Positions 11,929-21,407 of a stretch of DNA of 44,726 nucleotides are shown piece after piece. This stretch comes from an uncultured Candidatus Peregrinibacteria bacterium. Its GTDB lineage: Bacteria; Patescibacteriota; Gracilibacteria; Peribacterales; Peribacteraceae. The notes under the pieces are model-generated. The model ran no database searches. It was not told the DNA's origin and saw nothing but the letters and a program-made list of their open reading frames with translations. The position numbers and the translations under genes are program-made. Positions within the stretch are counted from its first letter, which is position 1, and each line of letters opens with the position of its first letter. The stretch is taken from the NCBI GenBank assembly GCA_937863435.1, contig CALMES010000150.1:1-44726 (forward strand). The letters are read 5' to 3'.

Positions 11929-12324
11929 ATGAAAAAGCCTCTTCTCATCATCGTCGCACTTATCGTTCTCCTCGTCGCTGGATTCTTCGCGTTCAATGCC
12001 TACATCTACAAAGAAAAACAGGGCGACGGAAAAGCTGTCACCTCGTATCGCGGCACGCTCACGGGCACGCAGGTCTGCCTGCCGCATGCAGATACCGACG
12101 GTCCGCAGACGCTGGAATGTGCGCTTGGCATGAAGACCGATACGGGTGAGTACTACGCACTGGATTTCGGCACACTCTCGCAAGGAATGCCTCCGCTTAC
12201 GGATGGCGATCGCTTCTCGGCAACAGGACTCATTACCCCCGTCGAAATGCTCAGCTCCGATCATTGGAAAAAGTATGACATCCAGGGAATTTTGTCGGTG
12301 ACGGATGCGGTGCAGAAATTATAG
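11929..12324 (+). CDS. Small membrane-anchored protein of unknown function
   Basis: The ATG at 11929 (MKKPLLIIVALIVLLVAGFF) starts 131 residues. One N-terminal membrane helix is followed by an extracytoplasmic domain: TSYRGTLTGTQVCLPHADTD, LECALGMKTDTGEYYALDFG, DRFSATGLITPVEML, KKYDIQGILSV. The short beta strands suggest an OB-like or small barrel domain. I recall similar short proteins in Candidate Phyla Radiation genomes, without known function. A longer frame from 11722 is possible, but its extra residues are not membrane- or domain-like, so 11929 is preferred. TATACT at 11918-11923 may be a -10 element, very close to the start. Confidence 0.6.
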   Translation: MKKPLLIIVALIVLLVAGFFAFNAYIYKEKQGDGKAVTSYRGTLTGTQVCLPHADTDGPQTLECALGMKTDTGEYYALDFGTLSQGMPPLTDGDRFSATGLITPVEMLSSDHWKKYDIQGILSVTDAVQKL

Positions 12325-12451
12325 AACCGTCTTGGCTGTGACCCACGGTGCCGTTGTCACCCGCGAGTATGGCTTACCGGCTGTTGTGGGAGTGGAGAAT
12401 GCGAATGAATGGGACGGGGGGGTTGGATGTGGTGTTAGGAGGGATCTGTTT

Positions 12452-12484
12452 ATGATTAAATTGGAATATGGATGTATTAACTAA
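12452..12484 (+). promoter_or_regulatory. Leader mini-ORF overlapping the vsr start
   Basis: An AGGAGG ribosome-binding site at 12438-12443 lies 8 bases before an ATG that opens a 10-codon frame (MIKLEYGCIN, stop at 12482-12484). The vsr ATG at 12468 lies inside it, 24+ bases from the ribosome-binding site. Translation of the mini-ORF could deliver ribosomes to vsr. Confidence 0.4.
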
Positions 12485-12875
12485 AAAACAACGCAGCTAC
12501 TGCATGTCTATGATTCGGGCAAAAAATACGAAGCCTGAAACAGCTTTGAGAAAAATGATTTATCTGGCGGGAGCAAGAGGCTACAGATTACATGCAGCAT
12601 TGCCGGGAAAGCCTGATATATATTTTCCGAAGAAGAGAATTGCTGTTTTTGTGGATGGGTGCTTCTGGCATGGTTGTCCATACTGCAAACTCAATCCGGT
12701 GACAAACAGATCTTTCTGGAAAAACAAAATCACTGCTAATCGTGCGAGGGACAGGAAAAACACGCGCCGTCTGAGACGGAATAAAATACATGTCATCAGA
12801 ATCAGAGAACATCAACTTAAAAGATATCCTGATAAATATACCGCGAAGATTATATCAATATTGAAAGAGCGCTGA
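12468..12875 (+). CDS. vsr: Vsr very-short-patch DNA mismatch endonuclease
   Basis: This is a 135-residue protein, the family's usual length. It has the signature MSMIRAKNTKPETALRKMI, then LPGKPDIYFPKKRIAVFVDG, CFWHGCPYC, RSFWKNKI and HVIRIREHQL. The Asp of PGKPDIYFP matches the catalytic Asp of the family, and the Cys/His of FWHGC match the zinc site. Vsr nicks next to the T of T:G mismatches made by deamination of 5-methylcytosine, so it pairs with the cytosine methyltransferase at 14118. It is convergent with the endonuclease gene and the two meet without a gap (12875/12876). Confidence 0.93.
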   Translation: MDVLTKKQRSYCMSMIRAKNTKPETALRKMIYLAGARGYRLHAALPGKPDIYFPKKRIAVFVDGCFWHGCPYCKLNPVTNRSFWKNKITANRARDRKNTRRLRRNKIHVIRIREHQLKRYPDKYTAKIISILKER

Positions 12876-14087
12876 TTACTGTTTGCTTTTTACCGAATCG
12901 ATGAAATCTTCAAGATTCATAAGCCAAGTCTGCTGTTTTTCTGTATACGTTTTTTGGATTTCCGTCGGTACAACCAGCTGAAGCATGCTCGACTCCATCT
13001 CCGCCGTCTGATCTTCGGTAATACCGCGTTCCAGAGTCACAAGATGCTTGCGCTTTATCCTGTCAGCCTCATTTAAAACCTGCGCCCATCGTTCCTTGCA
13101 CGTTGATTTTGCACCGAGCATCGTCAGCCTTTCCGAAGGAAAACCAGCATCCCGGTATTGCTCGATACCAGGAAAAATGAAGTCGGGTGTTCTTTTTCTT
13201 TCTGTAGCTTTTCCATGCGAAAACGAGAGCTTATGTTCGATGAAAACGTAAGCCAGATGTAATTCAAATGACTTACCCATCCTTGCCTTTCTTCGATTAT
13301 GAACACTTAATGAAAACTGGATAAATGCATCCACATCATCATTATTTTTTCCGAAACCTTCCTGCAGACGTATGGTGACCAGATATTTTTCGAAAGCCCT
13401 GAAAAGCTCTTCTTCCTTGCTGATCCAGCTTATCAAGGCTAAGTCAGGCGAATCCATTGATGATCCTACACCCGAATGCAGGCGGGCATAATCGGAAAAA
13501 ACCTTTGTCGGTGGAAGATTACCGTTGAAATCGTGGAGCATTTCACCAAGAAGATTATTGTCTGGCCGGATTGCCTCTATGCCCAGCTCCTCCAGAATGA
13601 GTCTGGAGGTAAAATCCAATCTTGCTTTTTCGGTGCTTAAATCCTGATACTCGACTCTCTGCAGATTCTGAGGAGAAAGAGAAAAAAGCCATAACAACTC
13701 CTGCTCTGCGCCGCTTCCCTGCTTTGCAGCTATGAGCATCACCGTTCCGTCAGTTCTTTTGCCGAAAATAACCAGATCACCCTCGTGAAATTTTTCGGTA
13801 ACATTAGACTGGGTGTAATACAGACGATGCTCAGTTCGCGGCGGTTTTCGCGATTCATACCAAGTCAGCGCATCAGTATGCCTTTCGTATTCCTCAGAGT
13901 CATCAAGATAAAGAAATGTTGTTTTGTATCTTATCTTGTCTCCGTTTTCCCGCTTACCAAAGAGCTTTACCAAACCTTCCACTCCGTTAAATTCGTGCTG
14001 ATGCGATCTGTCCGGACTGACTTCAACAGCACTCATTCTTTTTGCTGTTATTCCTTCGAAGTACTGTGACAAACCGTCTTGATGCAT
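12876..14087 (-). CDS. EcoRII-like type II restriction endonuclease
   Basis: This is a 403-residue protein. The N-terminal half has GDLVIFGKRTDGTVMLIAAK and GSGAEQELLWLF, resembling the EcoRII effector-binding domain. The C-terminal half has RKARMGKSFELHLAYVF, RTPDFIFPG and LTMLGAKSTCKERW. That is the PD-(D/E)xK core of the EcoRII catalytic domain, with the Asp of TPDFIFP and the Lys residues of GAKSTCK. LVTLERGIT and LQLVVP follow. It matches full-length EcoRII in size, so it probably needs two CCWGG-like sites. It lies 30 bp downstream of the methyltransferase on the same strand, as an operon. Specificity is inferred from the Dcm-Vsr context. Confidence 0.85.
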   Translation of the reverse strand: MHQDGLSQYFEGITAKRMSAVEVSPDRSHQHEFNGVEGLVKLFGKRENGDKIRYKTTFLYLDDSEEYERHTDALTWYESRKPPRTEHRLYYTQSNVTEKFHEGDLVIFGKRTDGTVMLIAAKQGSGAEQELLWLFSLSPQNLQRVEYQDLSTEKARLDFTSRLILEELGIEAIRPDNNLLGEMLHDFNGNLPPTKVFSDYARLHSGVGSSMDSPDLALISWISKEEELFRAFEKYLVTIRLQEGFGKNNDDVDAFIQFSLSVHNRRKARMGKSFELHLAYVFIEHKLSFSHGKATERKRTPDFIFPGIEQYRDAGFPSERLTMLGAKSTCKERWAQVLNEADRIKRKHLVTLERGITEDQTAEMESSMLQLVVPTEIQKTYTEKQQTWLMNLEDFIDSVKSKQ

Positions 14088-14117
14088 ATGTACATAATAC
14101 AGGACAAGCTGATAATA

Positions 14118-15116
14118 TCACGCCGGAACCAAAGCCAGTTTCAAAGAGGCTTTTTTTGCGGGTATAGCTTTGCCGATTGCAGGAATAAAAGCTGACTGCC
14201 TTATAACATGTCCTGCGAGATAGGACATCAAGGGCACGCACACTGAATTACCAAATTGTTTGTATGCCTGTGTATCTGATACCGGGATAATGAACGAATC
14301 AGGATAACCCTGTAATCGTGCACATTCCCGCGGAGTGAGGCGACGTGGCAGGGTATCATCCTGTGCTATCAGTATCTCGCTGCCGTCTTTGTAATATCTG
14401 GCAGAAAGCGTTCGCGTAACACCCTCCGGATTCCCAAGACCATAACCAAATCCGTTTCCCTTCTCCTTATGCTTTTTGGCATAAACCTGCAAATACTGCC
14501 ATAATTTGTCTGACAATGTGTATTTCGGATCGACTCTCTTCTCGAGAATATCCTTTAGTTTCATATTTTTGTGCGGCAGACTCTCAGGAAGCAGTATTTT
14601 ATGTGTCCTACAGGCTACTATAATTGTCCGTTCTCTGTGCTGCGGAACAAAATGAGCGGCATCAAAAATCTTCACATCAACAAAATAACCAAGTTCTTCA
14701 AGAGTCGCTCGTATTACCCTGAAAGTGTTACCTTTATCATGCGACAGAAGATTCTTCACATTCTCAAGAAAAACTACTTTCGGCTCATGATGTTTGATTA
14801 TACGTGCTATTTCGAAAAAGAGATTACCCTGTGATTCATCATCAAAACCATGTTTTCGCCCCAAGCTTATCTTTTTGGAGACTCCTGCAATGGAAAAAGG
14901 CTGACATGGAAATCCTGCACACAAAATATCAAATGCAGGAATATCTTCGACAGCAATTTTTGTAATATCGCCATGAGGCATTTCATTGAAATTAGTTTTA
15001 TATGTTTCGCAAGCATATTTATTCCATTCTGAAGAAAATACACATTTACCGCCCTGTTTTTCAAACGCCATCCGGATTCCTCCGATGCCTGCAAATAAAT
15101 CTATAAATTTGAACAT
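14118..15116 (-). CDS. dcm: DNA (cytosine-5) methyltransferase, Dcm-like
   Basis: This is a 332-residue protein with the ordered m5C motifs: [33 protein letters not shown] (catalytic Cys), [56 protein letters not shown]. The target-recognition region lies between VIII and IX. It makes 5-methylcytosine and protects against the endonuclease encoded just downstream. With Vsr and the EcoRII-type nuclease, a CCWGG-type target is likely. The coding strand is more AT-rich than neighbouring surface genes, fitting recent transfer. A palindrome lies 75 bp upstream of its start. Confidence 0.93.
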
Positions 15117-15190
15117 ATTTATATCTCGATTGTATTTGAAATAATCAAAACCGCTAGGAAATATTGATGCAAGATTTTACTAAATGTTAT

Positions 15191-15208
15191 GGTGTACAAA
15201 TGTACACC
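15191..15208. promoter_or_regulatory. 18-bp perfect palindrome upstream of dcm (candidate operator)
   Basis: GGTGTACA-AA-TGTACACC is a perfect inverted repeat about 75 bp upstream of the dcm ATG. Type II systems often place a controller or methyltransferase-binding site there. No controller gene is present, so autoregulation by the methyltransferase or an outside repressor are options. Confidence 0.45.
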
Positions 15209-15220
15209 TTTCTCCTCAAG

Positions 15221-15291
15221 CCTCCTCCAACCCCGGTGAGACGGTGAGTGTTGTTGTGCCAGAGCCACTCTTGTAATTCCCGTTCGCTGCT
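15221..15291 (-). repeat. Orphan copy 1 of the surface-gene 3'-end repeat
   Basis: On the minus strand this encodes AANGNYKSGSGTTTLTVSPG then LEEA and a stop. This is the last ~25 codons of the Ig-like surface gene at 20081, but no upstream gene is attached. It is direct-repeat-related to 16311-16390 and 20086-20164. Confidence 0.8.
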
Positions 15292-15314
15292 CATCTTTTT
15301 ATTAATCCCTCTAT

Positions 15315-15770
15315 TTATGCCTGATTGATAGTTGTATAGGTCCTTTCCTCGCAATCAATCACAACCGCATTACCTTTTGCCACCCGCTGCTGCGGGATTT
15401 TTTTATTAAGCATCGTTTCTCCGTACACAGCAGGTAAGAGAGTGGCGATTTCTTCATGTGTGACGACAATCAGCAAACCAACAGAACCTGCCATCTCGTT
15501 TATAGTCGCCAGCAGCGGAGCTATATCAAACCTCTTGTATCCGTACTGCGATGCGAGAAGATCATTCTGCTGGAAAGGCAGTTTCAGCTCTTCTGCCAAT
15601 ACGCGTGCTGTTTGCACAGCCCGCAGAACGGGCGACGACAGCACAAGACCGTTGCCGTCTTTATAGACTTCAAGTTCTTTGCCAAGAGCTATCGCCTTTT
15701 CTACGGCGGAAGACGTTATATCTCCGCTTGGCTTGTAATCGCCATGCCGAACAACTGCAAGGTAGCGCAT
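15315..15770 (-). CDS. SixA-like histidine phosphatase
   Basis: This is a 151-residue protein. RHG at the N-terminus (MRYLAVVRHGDY) supplies the phosphate-accepting His. SSPVLRAVQTARVLAEEL gives the second Arg motif, and LLIVVTHEEI gives the second catalytic His. Short members of this superfamily like SixA remove phosphate from phosphohistidine in signalling proteins, although other small phosphatases also fit. It is divergent from the gene at 15842, which has a different possible link to phosphohistidine. Confidence 0.8.
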   Translation of the reverse strand: MRYLAVVRHGDYKPSGDITSSAVEKAIALGKELEVYKDGNGLVLSSPVLRAVQTARVLAEELKLPFQQNDLLASQYGYKRFDIAPLLATINEMAGSVGLLIVVTHEEIATLLPAVYGETMLNKKIPQQRVAKGNAVVIDCEERTYTTINQA

Positions 15771-15800
15771 AGAGGTGCTAGTTCCGGTATCTTACATGTT

Positions 15801-15829
15801 TTGACTAAAATTTCAAATTGCTGTATAAT
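15801..15829 (+). promoter_or_regulatory. Strong sigma-70-type promoter
   Basis: TTGACT (15801-15806), 17-bp spacer, TATAAT (15824-15829). Transcription should start near 15836. The ATG at 15842 is therefore nearly leaderless, and the upstream ATGs at 15818 and 15830 are ruled out as starts. Confidence 0.75.
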
Positions 15830-15841
15830 ATGAATGTACAT

Positions 15842-16270
15842 ATGGACACAAAAAAGCACGCATTGAGAGCAAAAATTCATAGTCTGCCCATTCCCTCAGA
15901 AGGACAGACAAGTATGCGCGTGCCTTATATTATTATGCATAGCCCCAAGGCTCGCGGAGATATGTATCTTTTGCTATCTGCCCCCAGCCCCAGCCATGCC
16001 AACGTCGCCGAAGACCTCAATCATAACTCGCGCGACCCCAATATTGTCGGCGGAGGAATTTTATCACTCAGCAAAAACGGAGACACCTGGAACATGAATA
16101 TGGAAGCAAGATCGCATTACGGCACTATTCCCGAAGAAGTGCAGGATCGTTTTGCGCAGAAGATCAAACGGACATTGGCACTCAAGGGAGTTGAGATTGA
16201 TCAGATGGAAACTATCGCATCAGATTCTGATGTACATCATCACTGGGAAAACAAACATCAAGCAGCGTAA
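15842..16270 (+). CDS. Hypothetical protein, possibly Janus/Ocnus (phosphohistidine phosphatase)-like
   Basis: This is a 142-residue protein, with the start fixed by the promoter just upstream. It has VPYIIMHSPKARGDMYLL, then APSPSHANVAEDL, then IVGGGILSLSKNG, WNMNMEARSHYGTIPEEV and RTLALKGVEID. The order (strand, His in SHANVA, GGG-I-L, strand, S-x-x-YG) resembles the Janus/Ocnus family, where a His before a GGGxI motif is catalytic. Similarity is weak and remembered, not searched. It is divergent from a SixA-type phosphatase, which may be functional or chance. It could also be an unrelated CPR-specific protein. Confidence 0.4.
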   Translation: MDTKKHALRAKIHSLPIPSEGQTSMRVPYIIMHSPKARGDMYLLLSAPSPSHANVAEDLNHNSRDPNIVGGGILSLSKNGDTWNMNMEARSHYGTIPEEVQDRFAQKIKRTLALKGVEIDQMETIASDSDVHHHWENKHQAA

Positions 16271-16310
16271 CAACATGCAAAAACTGATGAGCATGACTTT
16301 TTCAGCTACG

Positions 16311-16390
16311 CCTCCTCCAACCCCGGTGAGACGGTGAGTGTTGTGGCTCCCGAGCCGCTCTTGTAATTCCCGTTCGCCGCTTGGGTGGAA
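16311..16390 (-). repeat. Orphan copy 2 of the surface-gene 3'-end repeat
   Basis: On the minus strand this encodes TQAANGNYKSGSGATTLTVS, PGLEEA and a stop, matching the C-terminus of the gene at 20081. It shares about 80 bp with 20086-20164 and 70 bp with 15221-15291, all in the same orientation. Confidence 0.8.
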
Positions 16391-16422
16391 TGGATATGGT
16401 TATCTGCAAATTCCTCAGAAGC

Positions 16423-17220
16423 CTAATTACCTTCTTCTGCATTGTCATATACTGAATAAAAGCCATTTTCTCCCTCTCTTCGCGCAAGATCGAATGTCAT
16501 AATGTGCTTATCATCGCCTGTTGGTCTGTTGCCATTATGGATGACGAGCGGATCGCTGAACAATAGCCAGCCGTTTTTTCCTCCGGCTAAGACACTTTCC
16601 TCTTCAATCCTGGTAGAAAACCTCGGCTGTACGAATGTATTTGTATTAAGTACAGCATTTATTGCATCAGCAATTGTGGTTATTTGGTCAGTGATCTTTC
16701 CTATCGTTTTCTTATTCTCCCGTATGGTTTGTATGGTTTCTAAAGAAGAACGATCTGCCAACTCCGACTCGGCAACAGACAGAAAATGGAGGACGGGTGA
16801 CACCCGAGTTTGCGCGACGGTGGAGTCTGCCGGAGAAATAAACGTGTAATATTCGATTTCCCGCTCACTTCTATCAACATGCCAGATTGTTTCGTCCTGC
16901 GCTCTATTAAAAACCATTCCCATGCGTATTGGGGCAGAAAGAGTCCCTGCCAAGAGACCGTATCTGTTGCAGAGTGCGAATAAAGCTGCACGCACTTGTC
17001 CTATTCCATTATTGAATTGGTCGAATAACTCTCTAGGTAATTCATTCTCAAATTCAAACCCGAAGCCATAAGGAAGTAATTCATCTAGGTACGAGGGCTT
17101 CATAACCCTGCCCTTTTGACCCTGCAGTAACTCGGGGACCTGAATTGCAGGGAAAGCTATCGAGAGTATACTTTCAACCGTTTGAAGCTGTGAGTGCATA
17201 GAGGCATACAATACATTCAC
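16423..17220 (-). CDS. Unknown protein with an HxD...H pattern (possible Fe(II)/2-oxoglutarate oxygenase fold)
   Basis: This is a 265-residue soluble protein that I do not recognise by family. Visible features are TIWHVDRSEREIEYYTFISP (an HxD motif), a helical middle (TIGKITDQITTIADAINAVL), then NGWLLFSDPLVIHNGNRPTG and DDKHIMTFDLARR. A His about 120 residues after HxD, in a strand followed by an Arg-containing segment, is how Fe(II)/2-oxoglutarate oxygenases arrange ligands. That fold is an inference. It is divergent from the gene at 17274 with a 53-bp AT-rich gap, and lies in a cassette with a protease-like protein, an AsnB-like enzyme and a small peptide. Confidence 0.4.
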   Translation of the reverse strand: MNVLYASMHSQLQTVESILSIAFPAIQVPELLQGQKGRVMKPSYLDELLPYGFGFEFENELPRELFDQFNNGIGQVRAALFALCNRYGLLAGTLSAPIRMGMVFNRAQDETIWHVDRSEREIEYYTFISPADSTVAQTRVSPVLHFLSVAESELADRSSLETIQTIRENKKTIGKITDQITTIADAINAVLNTNTFVQPRFSTRIEEESVLAGGKNGWLLFSDPLVIHNGNRPTGDDKHIMTFDLARREGENGFYSVYDNAEEGN

Positions 17221-17273
17221 AGTAATGTATATTCAAACACACTATTTTTCTTAGTCCATTACCTTCCTCTGCC

Positions 17274-17783
17274 ATGAGTGACCAGCTTTCCAAAAACGTT
17301 ACGATTATCTGTGCAGATGAATCTTCGACGATGGAAACCTTCGCTTTCAGATCGGTGCTGGAATATCTCGGCTTTACCGTTTCTGTCCGGTGGATAGGAA
17401 CCAAAAAAGAGTTTTTAGACCTCCTGCAGGGTAAAAAGGAAACAGATAACCTTATTGTTATCTCCTCACACGGAGAGAAGGGTAAATTTTTTATGCCTAC
17501 CAATGAAAACATTCTGTTCAGTGAGCTACATGTGAATCTTCCGGGAAAGACCGTGCTTAGCGTCGGATGCGATACAGGTGAGGCAAAGGACGAATTTCTC
17601 AAAGGGAAATGTAGGCAATACATCGCTCCCATGGATTACCCTGAAGGTAATGATGCGATGATGTTTACAGTAAAGTTCTTCTGGCTGATTGCACAGAACA
17701 AGAGTATCCAGCAAGCATTTGATTCCGCCTTGGCGGACATGCCGGAAGGCAGCGAATTTATGCTAGCCCAAAATCATTCTTAG
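17274..17783 (+). CDS. Minimal CHAT/caspase-like protein
   Basis: This is a 169-residue protein. After a Rossmann-like start (VTIICADESSTMETFAFRSV) it has NLIVISSHGEKGKFF (His-Gly motif), then GKTVLSVGCDTGEAKDEF (Cys in a TVLSxGCxTG setting), then YIAPMDYPEGNDAMMFTVKF and SIQQAFDSAL. CHAT and caspase-type clan CD proteases have the same order: strand-HG, then strand-Cys, then a sheet edge with helix. It lacks any fused sensor domain. Its 3' end overlaps the AsnB-like gene convergently by 26 bp. Protease activity is inferred from the His/Cys pair. Confidence 0.5.
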   Translation: MSDQLSKNVTIICADESSTMETFAFRSVLEYLGFTVSVRWIGTKKEFLDLLQGKKETDNLIVISSHGEKGKFFMPTNENILFSELHVNLPGKTVLSVGCDTGEAKDEFLKGKCRQYIAPMDYPEGNDAMMFTVKFFWLIAQNKSIQQAFDSALADMPEGSEFMLAQNHS

Positions 17784-19761
17784 TTGCCCGAAGCCATAAT
17801 TCGAGAGATAGCAATGTATCAAGCCATGCAGTTACCGGATCTGCTGGGTCGGCACATTCATCACTTAAGGCGTAGAGAATTGCTTTCCTTAGTTTTTTGG
17901 GATCAGTGATGTCCATTTCTGTAACTAGTGCCTTATACGGATCAGCAAAAACAACAGGTAGCGATTCACTCAAACGATTATCAACAGGTGTGCTATATAC
18001 TTCTTTATGCTGAGACTGGATGATTTCGTGTGGCACAATATCTTCAAGGCCGTAGCGTTGTAAGCATTTTCGCGAACCGTAGTGTGATACTCGGTCGTCA
18101 TCAAGCCTAAACTTGAACTCCGGTGGCACAGTGAGACCGAATTCCAATAGTCTTTTATCTAGATACGGTAGTTTCAGCTCAGTATCAACCGCGATCCCTT
18201 GCCATCCATGATTTGGCGGAAACATGAGGTCATGCTCCAATTGCTGATTCCATGTGGATAGCCTCTTTTTCTTTCTCAGCATTGCTATTTGCTGCCGCAT
18301 CAATTCTTGCAAATCTTTTGTAAATGATTCTGTGAATAGATCGGGCACCTCTGCATGAAGAGTACTGGCATAATACTCTCGTAGATATTCTTCTGTACCT
18401 AACCTTCCCGGCAGCAAGGGACGAAGCGCATACATATACATGTACTTCGCGAAAGTTTTGGCGTTGGACCGTGCCCGAAGAATCTTTGCGGATCTCATTA
18501 ATTCTTTACTATTGCCCGACTTTATCAGGGAATCCCAAATAGCATCGGTACCTTCCAAATACCAATCAGCAGCTTCTCCTGTTAATACTGATCTGCATCC
18601 TAAGCGTGCGGCCAGCTGACATATCGCAACATATGATTCAGGAATATTCATTCTCGAGCAATTTGCGGTGGCACGAAGGTCCTTATACTGGCCAGATTCT
18701 AGGAAATTACAGAGGTCATCACCTTGAATGTAATGCTGCTCGATGAACGGCCATCTATTTAATACGGAATCTATTTTGACTTTTTCAGTTAAGCTACCTT
18801 TGCCGAAAACTGCAGTGAAGGTATGGAAGTCGTGAGCATCAATTTCTCCCTTACTCATGAGATCTGCTGCAACCGCAACATTGCAGCCGGAATCAATTCC
18901 GCCTGACAAATCCGCACCGATTGGATACCTGGAATCCAGAAAATCCCTCATCACTTCAATATAAATTCCACGAAAATCCTCTGCATATGCTCTGATATCT
19001 TTCCGGCTGCGCTGCAGTTGGTCTGGTGGTCGCCAATACTGTGTTGAAATTCTCCTACCATCTCGATTTATTTCGACAGATGTCCCGTGAGGAAGGGTGG
19101 CGTATCTTTCGAGCAAAGTTGAGCCTGGATCAGACCACCCTTCATCGTCGACATACAAGGGGGAAAACATTTCCAAGACTTTGGCTCTATTCAGTTGTGG
19201 AAGAGCATTATTTTGCGCAAGAAGCTGACAAATATCAGAGCCGAATGCCAACTGATTTTTCCCAACCTCAGAAAGATACACAGGTCTTAACCCCATGTGA
19301 TCATTAACAAGCAGCGCGCGGTTTTCACCGGCAAGCACGATGCAGGCAGTAAATGCACCAAGGATCCGCTTATAAAAATGTGGTCCCCAGGTATTAAATG
19401 CAGCATTTATTATACCTGAATAGGTAGCGCTATTGGCATTAATCCCCAGCTCCTTCGCCAGGGCAAGTCGATTATCGATTCTACCCTCAAAACAAACTGT
19501 GGATTCACCAATATGCACTAAGCAATTATCTTCATACCCGGAAGATTCATACCCTGCCTGGGCGAGTGCATACCATTCTCCGATAGTAGTTCTATTCGGT
19601 GAATTACCTGCCAGCTTTTCTTGCATCCTATAAAAGCTGCCGGTATCTATTGCTGATCCGTCGAGAGAAATGATGCCGCAAATGCCAGGACGCATAATCA
19701 TATGTTCAGCTGTGTCGCCATGGGGGAATTTCTCCCCCATGACGATCCGTGGAGACGTCAC
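17758..19761 (-). CDS. Asparagine-synthetase (AsnB)-like amidotransferase
   Basis: This is a 667-residue protein from GTG 19761. Better-supported downstream starts are possible (ATG 19740, 19701 or 19695). The N-terminal glutaminase-like domain begins PGICGIISLDGSAID, with GPHFYKRILGAFTACIVL and LVNDHMGLRPVYLS. The synthetase domain has the PP-loop DLSGGIDSG and LTGEAADWYLEGTDA, then DTELKLPYLDKRLLEFGLTV. In true AsnB the catalytic Cys is residue 2. Here it sits inside GICGI, so glutamine use is doubtful unless the N-terminus is trimmed. Such AsnB relatives include lasso-peptide cyclases and other ATP-dependent amide-forming enzymes. It lies directly downstream of a 50-residue peptide gene. 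Confidence 0.75.
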   Translation of the reverse strand: MTSPRIVMGEKFPHGDTAEHMIMRPGICGIISLDGSAIDTGSFYRMQEKLAGNSPNRTTIGEWYALAQAGYESSGYEDNCLVHIGESTVCFEGRIDNRLALAKELGINANSATYSGIINAAFNTWGPHFYKRILGAFTACIVLAGENRALLVNDHMGLRPVYLSEVGKNQLAFGSDICQLLAQNNALPQLNRAKVLEMFSPLYVDDEGWSDPGSTLLERYATLPHGTSVEINRDGRRISTQYWRPPDQLQRSRKDIRAYAEDFRGIYIEVMRDFLDSRYPIGADLSGGIDSGCNVAVAADLMSKGEIDAHDFHTFTAVFGKGSLTEKVKIDSVLNRWPFIEQHYIQGDDLCNFLESGQYKDLRATANCSRMNIPESYVAICQLAARLGCRSVLTGEAADWYLEGTDAIWDSLIKSGNSKELMRSAKILRARSNAKTFAKYMYMYALRPLLPGRLGTEEYLREYYASTLHAEVPDLFTESFTKDLQELMRQQIAMLRKKKRLSTWNQQLEHDLMFPPNHGWQGIAVDTELKLPYLDKRLLEFGLTVPPEFKFRLDDDRVSHYGSRKCLQRYGLEDIVPHEIIQSQHKEVYSTPVDNRLSESLPVVFADPYKALVTEMDITDPKKLRKAILYALSDECADPADPVTAWLDTLLSLELWLRATKNDFGLA
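19720..19740. promoter_or_regulatory. Perfect stem-loop between the small peptide gene and the AsnB domain
   Basis: ATGGGGGA-ATTTC-TCCCCCAT forms an 8-bp stem with a 5-base loop. On the minus strand it lies just after the peptide gene and overlaps the possible AsnB start region. No T-run follows, so it is not a standard terminator. It may protect mRNA or tune translation of the downstream gene. Confidence 0.45.
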
Positions 19762-19767
19762 GACGGC

Positions 19768-19920
19768 TCAGGACGCGGATTCATTGGCGTTCGCGTCGGC
19801 CGGCTTCTCTTCCTTCTTCTCGGGCACCGGGGTCTGGAACATGCGAGCGAACTCCTCATGTTTCATGCCCTTCGTGCCCTTGCCGTGACTACCGTCTCCG
19901 TGCTTGCTCTTTTTGCTCAT
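19768..19920 (-). CDS. 50-residue charged peptide, candidate precursor
   Basis: The ATG at 19920 is preceded by an ideal AAAGGAGGTG ribosome-binding site (19926-19935, 5-base gap). The product is rich in Gly/His/Lys at the start (MSKKSKHGDGSHGKGTKG), has a middle MKHEEFARMFQTP and an acidic tail ending ADANANESAS. It has no signal peptide or membrane helix and no Cys. It ends 6 bases before the first start of the AsnB-like gene. Strong translation of a tiny gene directly before a peptide-modifying-type enzyme resembles RiPP precursor organisation, but no known precursor motif is present. It may instead be an ordinary small protein. Confidence 0.6.
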   Translation of the reverse strand: MSKKSKHGDGSHGKGTKGMKHEEFARMFQTPVPEKKEEKPADANANESAS

Positions 19921-20006
19921 GGATTCACCTCCTTTCGTGAGCGTTAAAGTAAATGGAGCAAATTAAACCCTCCTTCCTTTAACCTGCTGGTCAAAAGAAG
20001 TGATAT

Positions 20007-20035
20007 ATAATCATGCCAATATTTACGTTTGTCAA
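20007..20035 (-). promoter_or_regulatory. Promoter of the small peptide/AsnB operon
   Basis: On the minus strand there is TTGACA (20030-20035), a 17-bp spacer and GATTAT (20007-20012, followed by more TA-rich sequence). The leader of ~75 bases contains an inverted repeat GTTAAAG/CTTTAAC (19942-19948 and 19976-19982) enclosing a second GGAAGGAGGG sequence. Confidence 0.55.
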
Positions 20036-20080
20036 TATTTTACTAAATATTATTGCATTTGGACTAGTATCTCACTCTTC

Positions 20081-20881
20081 CTAACTCTCCTCCAACCCCG
20101 GTGAGACGGTGAGTGTTGTGGTTCCCGAGCCACTCTTGTAATTCCCGTTCGCCGCTTGGGTGGAGATGATGGTTGTGGTTCCGGCACCAACGATGGTGAC
20201 TGCTCTGCCAAAAACGGTGGCGACACTCGGGTTCGTGCTGGTAAAGGTGAATGCACCAGCGCTGTTGGACACTGGGTCAGAGAGGAAAAACGGGAGATCT
20301 GATACGTTTTTGGAAATACTGATGAGCGCAATGATAGTTGGCGCGATGGTGTTTACAGTAAGCGTGGACAGAGCACTCGCTCCCGTAAAATCCCCTGCTG
20401 CTGCCTGCGTTGCCGTAATCGTCGCTGTTCCGGCGCCGATAATCGTCACCGTGTTTCCGGCGACGGTCGCAACTGATGGGTTGCTAGAGAGAAACGTAAA
20501 AGTACCGTTGCTGTTGGAGGTGGGAGACAACACGAATGCGCTATCGCCGTAGTTCTTGGTAATGGCTGTAAAGGTGATGGAGGGCGTTGTCAGTACATGC
20601 ACACTGCTGGAGACAGAACTTGCCACTGCTACCGGCTGATGGCCGCCACCATTGCGTCGCTTGCTCATGCGAAATGCTTCCCAGGCGAGCGAATCCAGTG
20701 ATGACGAAGAAGACGAGACAGATGATACCGCGGCAGCGTGCGCATATTTTTGTAGTCGCGCCAAACGTCTTTCCAGCAATTTTCCTCCTATTACCGGTGC
20801 GGCTTGCAGCGGTTGAAAAACGCCACCACCCATGCTTATGAGAATCGTCATTACGATGATTATGCTCAAGCGATGACGCAT
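20081..20881 (-). CDS. Secreted protein with bacterial Ig-like repeats
   Basis: This is a 266-residue protein. A signal peptide (IIIVMTILISMGGGVFQPLQA) is followed by a serine-rich stretch (VSSVSSSSSSLDSLA), a GGGH linker, then two tandem ~80-residue repeats: ITFTAITKNYGDSAFVLSPT, FTFLSSNPSVATVAGNTVTI, GAGTATITATQAAAGDF. The NPSVATV-x-G-x-x-VTIxGAGTxTIxxTQ pattern is that of Big-type Ig-like domains, often in surface adhesins. It ends in SPGLEES without the Cys tag seen in its neighbours. Its last ~80 bp recur as orphan copies at 15221 and 16311. Confidence 0.8.
   Translation of the reverse strand: MRHRLSIIIVMTILISMGGGVFQPLQAAPVIGGKLLERRLARLQKYAHAAAVSSVSSSSSSLDSLAWEAFRMSKRRNGGGHQPVAVASSVSSSVHVLTTPSITFTAITKNYGDSAFVLSPTSNSNGTFTFLSSNPSVATVAGNTVTIIGAGTATITATQAAAGDFTGASALSTLTVNTIAPTIIALISISKNVSDLPFFLSDPVSNSAGAFTFTSTNPSVATVFGRAVTIVGAGTTTIISTQAANGNYKSGSGTTTLTVSPGLEES
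20086..20164 (-). repeat. Parental copy of the surface-gene 3'-end repeat
   Basis: These are the last codons of the Ig-like gene (TQAANGNYKSGSGTTTLTVS). Same orientation as the orphan copies at 15221-15291 and 16311-16390. Confidence 0.8.
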
Positions 20882-20969
20882 AAAACGATTCTATCGCATT
20901 TTAAAAATGAGCAGTAGACGATCGACTTGCCGAGAATGATGAAACGAACAGATTCAACTGATTTCTCAC

Positions 20970-21407
20970 TTATCCGATCTTCTCTGCCAGCTCGACAATA
21001 ATCCCCTCCGGCCCACGCACATAGCATAACTTATAGATGTTTTCGTAGTTGCATATCTCGCCCATCAGCTGCCCGCCTTTCTTTTGGAGTTTCGCCACAA
21101 GTCCTTCTACATCCTCCACGGCAAAGCAGATATGCCGCATGCCATGGGTATTGGCAAACGACGGCTGCACTCCTTTTTCATCGACTGGCTTGTAGTATTT
21201 TACCAGCTCGATCATCGCCTCGCCGCCCGGGATGCGCATCATCACCATCCTGTCTTTTACATCTTGCAAGCCGATGACTTTTTCAACCAGCTCACCCTCC
21301 ATATCCATTTCGCCCATCACTTCCATTCCCAGGTCCAGAAAAAATTCCTTCGCGGCAGCAAGATCTTCTACGTTAATGCCGATGTGATCGATGCGGTGGA
21401 GGATCAT
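20970..21407 (-). CDS. VOC-superfamily protein, methylmalonyl-CoA epimerase-like
   Basis: This is a 145-residue protein with two betaalphabetabetabeta modules: MILHRIDHIGINVEDLAAAK, then MIELVKYY, then HGMRHICFAVEDVEGLVAKL, then GIIVELAEK. Metal ligands expected of the glyoxalase/epimerase group are visible as His8 in IDHIG, Glu in IELV, His in MRHICF and Glu in VELAE. The long first half (EKVIGLQDVKDRMVMMRIPG) fits methylmalonyl-CoA epimerase or a lactoylglutathione lyase relative. The exact substrate cannot be told. Confidence 0.75.
   Translation of the reverse strand: MILHRIDHIGINVEDLAAAKEFFLDLGMEVMGEMDMEGELVEKVIGLQDVKDRMVMMRIPGGEAMIELVKYYKPVDEKGVQPSFANTHGMRHICFAVEDVEGLVAKLQKKGGQLMGEICNYENIYKLCYVRGPEGIIVELAEKIG

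Follow-up and report, generated by a model that had tools for sequence, protein, structure and literature searches.

Minimal and mobile genes for a probable leaderless lasso peptide of the lariocidin/triculamin type in Candidatus Peribacteraceae

Introduction

Lariocidin-type peptides are recent, first-in-class lasso antibiotics that target the bacterial ribosome, and triculamin is reportedly a lasso peptide of Streptomyces (Andersen et al. 2022). A published survey places lariocidin-type carriers in the Alpha- and Gammaproteobacteria, Bacillota and Actinomycetota, and in the lariocidin cluster itself the clostripain-family (clan CD) peptidase LrcF trims the C-terminal Gly, a step that stops on deletion of LrcF (PMC11451635). 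Among the Patescibacteria, clusters for ribosomally synthesised and post-translationally modified peptides (RiPPs) have been described in the form of the azol(in)e peptide (LAP) clusters of the Candidate Phyla Radiation (CPR), including two from Peregrinibacteria (PMC7298704). The subject of this work is a cassette within a 44,726-nucleotide (nt) stretch of DNA, hereafter the window, positions 1 to 44,726 of contig CALMES010000150.1 from an uncultured Candidatus (Ca.) Peregrinibacteria bacterium (assembly GCA_937863435.1). With a probability of roughly 0.8, the cassette is considered a minimal mobile cluster, housed in Ca. Peribacteraceae (Patescibacteria), whose product would be a lasso peptide of lariocidin/triculamin type made from a leaderless precursor.

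An original prediction, made from the DNA letters and their open reading frames (ORFs), had grouped four ORFs here as a RiPP-type cassette: a 50-residue peptide, an AsnB-like enzyme, a CHAT-like protein and a protein with an HxD...H motif. All four were found where predicted, the predicted range coincides with borders formed by 78-nt repeats, and the RiPP-type reading is borne out by a peptide and a lasso-type cyclase with conserved partners. Feature coordinates are collected in Table 1.

The precursor peptide and its expression signals

Residues 1–19 of the peptide match two NCBIfam models, triculamin_pre (2.7e-5) and lario_core (8.4e-5). The predicted core, SKKSKHGDGSHGKGTKG, is identical at 12 of 17 positions to triculamin, SKKSKPGDGIRGKGVRG, printed as cyc(SKKSKPGD)GIRGKGVRG (PMC13192320), and Asp8 is retained. 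The earlier statement that no known precursor motif is present was therefore mistaken. Alignment of the six precursors found in the family (see below) demonstrates that Ser1, Lys2, Lys3, Gly7, Asp8 and Gly9 are common to all, with basic residues in both ring and tail. The core begins directly after the Met, and a C-terminal extension completes the peptide. The triculamin precursor model, NF050031, has this same arrangement without a leader, and the peptide aligns to positions 1–19 of the 50 in the model. Near the start of this extension, or follower, lies a hydrophobic patch; the window sequence here is EEFARMF, that of relatives PFDEVF and that of Lewinella EELLATMF.

The originally noted ribosome-binding site is present, and five of the six loci have this AAAGGAGGTGA box in front of the peptide gene; in G458 it is shortened to AAAGGAG. 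A strong RNA hairpin lies 3' of the precursor stop in all five loci that were folded. Four of them have a U-tract, a feature of intrinsic terminators; the window hairpin is without one and sits between peptide and cyclase. Such a hairpin may keep precursor transcripts above those of the enzymes. The proposal that the peptide gene has its own promoter is unsupported, as the consensus match is the only one in the region against 5.6 in shuffled sequence, and because shuffles yield more matches than the region it carries no evidential weight.

The AsnB-like enzyme

The AsnB-like enzyme matches the lasso cyclase model NF033535 at 4.4e-47, compared with 4.1e-29 for asparagine synthase, and lasso cyclase is also the best family for the enzymes of G458, G459 and Lewinella. 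The suggestion of an amide-forming enzyme other than asparagine synthetase thus finds its best family in the lasso macrolactam cyclases. Relatives of the window enzyme share 41–43% identity with it. In the window, G458 and G459 the N-terminus reads M-x(2-3)-PGICG, in which Pro replaces the nucleophilic Cys2 of AsnB; the AsnB paralogues from this bacterial family have MCGIAG at their start. The Cys had correctly been located inside GICGI and not at residue 2, and the relatives likewise keep PGICG and have no Cys2, which does not bear out the condition originally set for refutation. With Pro in this position the glutaminase is predicted to be inactive, and the ATP-binding PP-loop, SGGIDSG, is intact. 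Because the enzyme falls in the lasso-cyclase family, has lost the Cys and has kept SGGIDSG, it is expected to condense Asp8 with the amine of Ser1 and not to produce asparagine.

Since the relatives begin M-x(2-3)-PGICG, translation probably starts at ATG 19701 or 19695, ca. 65 nt downstream of the peptide stop. The six-base gap originally given between the two genes holds for the first possible start, GTG 19761, but probably not for the true one. The candidacy of plasmids as a source of closer cyclases was rejected, their matches being at AsnB level only (22–25%), and no viral relatives of the G458 cyclase were found. In G052 and G463, an ORF of 115 residues belonging to no family stands in place of the N-terminal cyclase domain (L027 4677-5024; L041 10817-11089), and the missing domain was not found elsewhere in the contigs examined.

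The CHAT-like protein

An AlphaFold2 model of the CHAT-like protein, built from five sequences, has a predicted local distance difference test score (pLDDT) of 90.5 and a caspase-type fold. The closest fold is that of SAVED-CHAT (VIA Z 17.1, root-mean-square deviation 2.9 over 166 residues), with further matches to separase, caspases, Csx29, gingipain and legumain, and the His66-Gly and Gly-Cys99 motifs are invariant among relatives. On this model the protein has a clan CD-type caspase/separase/CHAT fold with catalytic motifs, for which peptidase activity is predicted; its first description as a CHAT-like, minimal His/Cys protease-like protein is confirmed by both the structure model and the invariant residues. 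By analogy, the protein may remove the follower. No viral relatives of it were found.

Small CHAT-like proteins also occur in other settings. On the Priestia filamentosa plasmid pBEH1 (L094 8226-9984) a standalone one with 36% identity to the window protein lies between GNAT and glyoxalase genes; the glyoxalase is annotated "response to antibiotic", and the trio may amount to a small unit for resistance or defence. Standalone copies in another Patescibacteria family (f54; L099 4026-4574, L100 7882-8439) have no lasso genes nearby.

Distribution and mobility of the module

A precursor profile was run on 74 genomes from the window's own family, Ca. Peribacteraceae, and a CHAT profile on 144 relatives. 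The precursor was found in six of the 74 (the window's genome, G458, G459, G052, G463 and G455), and full-length CHAT is present in exactly these six among the 144, together with one fragment in G030. The concern that the peptide might lack a conserved partner is thereby removed: precursor, cyclase and CHAT genes are adjacent in all six carriers. Two of the carriers are on record as Ca. Peregrinibacteria CG1_02_54_53 and Ca. Peribacteraceae STF1_142; the STF1_142 module is on a contig of 242 kb, and in G459 the module lies inside a 242-kb contig, which speaks for correct binning. CHAT and cyclase genes overlap tail to tail. The overlap measures 26 nt in the window and 86–89 nt in the other loci with both ends readable; the contig of G455 breaks off inside the cyclase. 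Five loci have the peptide gene immediately upstream of CHAT, whereas the window has it upstream of the cyclase. The proposed co-occurrence of four genes consequently stands for three, which are together in six genomes, and fails for the HxD...H gene, confined to the window's genome among the relatives searched.

The module moves between genomes. G052 and G463 have 3,226 nt in common at 99.94% identity with different left flanks, G455, from another genus, has 1.26 kb in common at 93%, and large serine recombinases or an IS1595-type transposase are close to the module in three loci. The flanks of the window's cassette are 73–86% identical to the same-genus genome G001, which has no cassette, and for this reason the window contig is not regarded as mis-binned.

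Across 84,980 species genomes, a scan for the leaderless-core pattern returned two Peribacteraceae, Kribbella antibiotica, Nocardia crassostreae and two Lewinella metagenome-assembled genomes (MAGs), a lower bound given the strictness of the pattern. Kribbella antibiotica has three precursors, a short AsnB-type cyclase and a GNAT gene, and the cyclases of the Lewinella MAGs are 33–35% identical to that of the window. No CHAT gene was present in the stretches examined around the Kribbella, Nocardia and Lewinella precursors, and no further convincing precursor was found in 380 genomes spread over the phylum. The Lewinella loci (L046 927-3406; L047 5066-7262) belong to a phylum absent from the published survey; each combines a cyclase of its own with leaderless precursors of lariocidin type, two precursors being in tandem in L046, and ATP-grasp and ketosynthase genes lie downstream. 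Adjoining the G052 module (L027 5355-9676) are a DUF364-domain protein and then, by eye, an AMP-dependent ligase together with a pyridoxal phosphate (PLP)-type decarboxylase; an MFS transporter lies further on. This stretch resembles another small biosynthetic cluster.

Proposed biosynthesis

From these components we infer a route to a product of lasso topology. The precursor would be made in excess through its strong, conserved ribosome-binding site and the hairpin directly downstream, and methionine aminopeptidase would strip the Met to leave a free Ser1 N-terminus, as the core begins at residue 2. The cyclase would recognise the C-terminal follower, use its PP-loop to adenylate the side chain of Asp8 and close the ring around the tail by linking Asp8 to the amine of Ser1; its family suggests this chemistry. 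Subsequently, the CHAT-fold protease may remove the follower, probably after Gly17, where triculamin ends, releasing a strongly cationic 17-residue lasso of predicted monoisotopic mass 1676.87. After export, the peptide might act on the 30S subunit of competing or host bacteria in the manner of lariocidin, as the homology of the core suggests. The bolder proposal, that CHAT represents a new class of lasso-maturation protease which removes the follower and possibly closes a second ring at Lys2 (a double lariat like that of lariocidin B), with an episymbiont making a ribosome-targeting antibiotic, is tentative and held at somewhat less than even odds.

Evaluation of the interpretation

Several observations weigh against a lasso cluster. 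The curated cut-offs are 27 bits for the lariocidin/triculamin core model (NF050022) and 65 bits for the triculamin precursor model (NF050031), and the window precursor stays under both, with 22.8 and 24 bits, respectively; under the core model the orthologues of G459 (32.4 bits) and G458 (37.2 bits) exceed the cut-off, and those of G052 (16.6) and G455 (16.7) do not. The cyclases score 132–163 bits, far under the curated lasso-cyclase cut-off of 525 bits, and those of G052 and G463 are without the N-terminal domain, from which loss of function does not follow because the Kribbella cyclase is equally short. No RiPP recognition element (RRE, B1) or transglutaminase-like B2 protein was recognised among the cassette genes with Pfam and NCBIfam, and the window precursor has no leader for them to remove. 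Neither an exporter nor a GNAT self-resistance gene is present in the window's cassette. Among the other carriers, and in favour of the reading, G459 has a full-length ABC exporter diverging from the cyclase, with orthologues of 76–78% in the carriers G052 and G463 only, on other contigs, and housekeeping-level matches only in eight non-carriers; a GNAT gene upstream of the module is found in G463 only, two genes upstream of the precursor. Lastly, since small CHAT-like proteins stand without lasso genes in Priestia and in the CPR family f54, CHAT proteins in general are not tied to lasso clusters.

These standalone copies, one of them beside GNAT and glyoxalase genes, are also what would be anticipated if the cluster were of lariocidin type but CHAT were an immunity or defence factor, acting for instance by peptide degradation or cell shutdown, with a housekeeping protease cutting the follower. 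Many bacterial CHAT proteins are effectors, the nearest folds are SAVED-CHAT and Csx29, the triculamin-type cluster of Kribbella has no CHAT gene, and the window's cassette offers no other obvious immunity gene. Even so, this arrangement is judged unlikely: the protein has no fused sensor domain, its candidacy as an annotated defence protein was rejected on a weak PADLOC match (BovA, 4.6e-4), five of the six loci have its gene immediately after that of the precursor, as for a processing enzyme, and lariocidin is itself trimmed at the C-terminus by a clan CD peptidase. It is rather improbable that the module is a decaying passenger, spread horizontally and by now without an active product in this genome. 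The 78-nt repeats, the nearby recombinases and transposase, the near-identity of G052 and G463 between different flanks, the truncated cyclases of these two and the CHAT fragment of G030 would all suit decay, but the three core ORFs of the window are intact with their catalytic motifs, and the core, ribosome-binding site and hairpin are conserved between divergent loci, which points to selection.

The low cyclase scores and the lack of recognised B1 and B2 partners could further be accommodated by an enzyme that forms some other amide, for example in an isopeptide-linked or amidated linear peptide. This is very improbable, given that the core reproduces the triculamin ring and conserves its Ser1, its Asp8 and the placing of its Gly residues, and that the same core stands beside lasso-type cyclases in two other phyla. 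That an ordinary asparagine synthetase lies by chance beside a peptide and unrelated small genes is scarcely credible; the enzyme does have the AsnB Pfam domains, but the three-gene module recurs in six genomes, the glutaminase Cys is lost and the core matches. A minimal lariocidin/triculamin-type cluster is preferred over each of these.

Target-site immunity was considered separately. In E. coli, the 16S substitution G1207A gives lariocidin resistance. All three carriers for which a 16S was found have A-U or G-U at the 16S helix 34 (h34) pair 1051-1207, but the pair is also other than C-G in 13 of 31 non-carriers (p about 0.09, hand calculation), and it is C-G in the same-genus G001, the window's own 16S being absent from the assembly; immunity through h34 is therefore unsupported. 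Of the 27 Peribacteraceae genera covered (L057-L093), about nine have A-U, G-U or U-A at this pair. To our knowledge it is nearly always C-G elsewhere.

Cassette borders and accessory gene

Table 1. Features of the cassette and its borders, in window positions
Feature	Position	Strand	Basis or remark
Cassette	16312-20164		78-nt direct repeat at each end, repeats 97% identical
Precursor peptide gene, 50 residues, leaderless: Met, core, C-terminal follower	19768..19920	(-)	NCBIfam, six genomes
Predicted lasso core SKKSKHGDGSHGKGTKG, ring Ser1-Asp8	19867..19917	(-)	Triculamin identity, alignment of relatives; mature length predicted
Follower segment MKHEEFARMFQ...	19771..19866	(-)	Hydrophobic patch (F/L)xxxF near its start; role inferred
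Ribosome-binding site AAAGGAGGTGA	19925..19935	(-)	4 nt before ATG of peptide gene
Sigma-70-like promoter match TTGACA-17-GATTAT	20007..20035	(-)	Consensus only
RNA hairpin, 13 base pairs	19715..19745	(-)	Between precursor stop and cyclase start; fold z = -3.2
Small CHAT/caspase-fold cysteine protease (predicted), His66-Cys99	17274..17783	(+)	AlphaFold2, fold search, invariant His/Cys
Lasso macrolactam cyclase (AsnB-like)	17758..19701	(-)	Start ATG 19701 or 19695; ORF as called 17758-19761
Accessory protein with WHVD...IH..., possible Fe(II)/2-oxoglutarate oxygenase	16423..17220	(-)	Motif only
78-nt direct repeat, left border	16312..16389		Copy of Big_2 gene 3' end; 97% identical to 20087-20164
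78-nt direct repeat, right border	20087..20164		Inside 3' end of Big_2 gene (20081-20881)
Third repeat copy, 83% identical	15222..15299		Left of histidine-phosphatase gene

The three copies of the Big_2 3' end, at 15222, 16312 and 20087, flank two neighbouring inserts in the manner of duplicated attachment sites, and no recombinase was identified within these two inserts. In comparison with G001, positions 12324-20972 form a variable spot with conserved genes on both flanks, which holds a Vsr, an EcoRII-C nuclease and a cytosine methyltransferase (12468-15116), the histidine phosphatase and the lasso cassette.

The HxD...H protein has no Pfam or NCBIfam family match, and its single-sequence structure model was unusable (pLDDT 33.7). 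No homologue was found in 115 relatives, viral contigs, plasmids, PDB sequences or PHROGs, and its place in a four-gene pathway was rejected. Of the possible Fe(II)/2-oxoglutarate oxygenase suggested originally, the HxD...H motif is present and support extends no further.

Comparison with known systems

The core and cyclase found in Patescibacteria and in Lewinella MAGs (Bacteroidota) widen the lariocidin family and add natural core variants, e.g. with His6 or His5-Pro6 and with Tyr or His at position 11. The strictly linked small CHAT protease is a testable candidate for follower removal in leaderless precursors. If the interpretation is correct, ultra-small bacteria would gain a diffusible weapon or tool against the host cell. 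The literature searched contained no earlier lasso peptides from Patescibacteria, only azol(in)e peptides, with Merrild 2025 and the final Nature lariocidin paper outside the comparison.

In common with triculamin, the window has the core pattern SKKSKxGDGxxGKGxxG, the Ser1-Asp8 ring positions, an N-terminal core with a C-terminal extension (NF050031) and a cationic character. It differs from triculamin at core residues 6, 10, 11, 15 and 16, in its phylum, in the addition of a CHAT-fold protease and in having no acetyltransferase in the cassette. With the lariocidin cluster lrcA-F of Paenibacillus sp. M2 (PMC11451635) it shares the predicted core family, a predicted 8-residue ring and a gene for a clan CD-type cysteine peptidase. 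However, the lariocidin cluster contains B1/B2, the ABC exporter D1D2 and the GNAT E, none of which was recognised in the window's cassette; the lariocidin family model places the core at the precursor C-terminus after a leader, whereas the window precursor is leaderless; and the window CHAT is small and, unlike LrcF, not recognisable as a clostripain by sequence.

The CHAT protein resembles SAVED-CHAT, Csx29/TPR-CHAT and separase in its fold and His/Cys motifs, while the lasso-linked form, in contrast to these, comprises only 169–182 residues, has no sensor domain and is tied to a lasso module. The LAP clusters of the CPR rely on YcaO/nitroreductase chemistry, whereas the window's cluster is of predicted lasso type. 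The locus had been expected to be new if confirmed, and measured against the published survey this is so for the phylum and for the CHAT partner, the class of peptide being already known.

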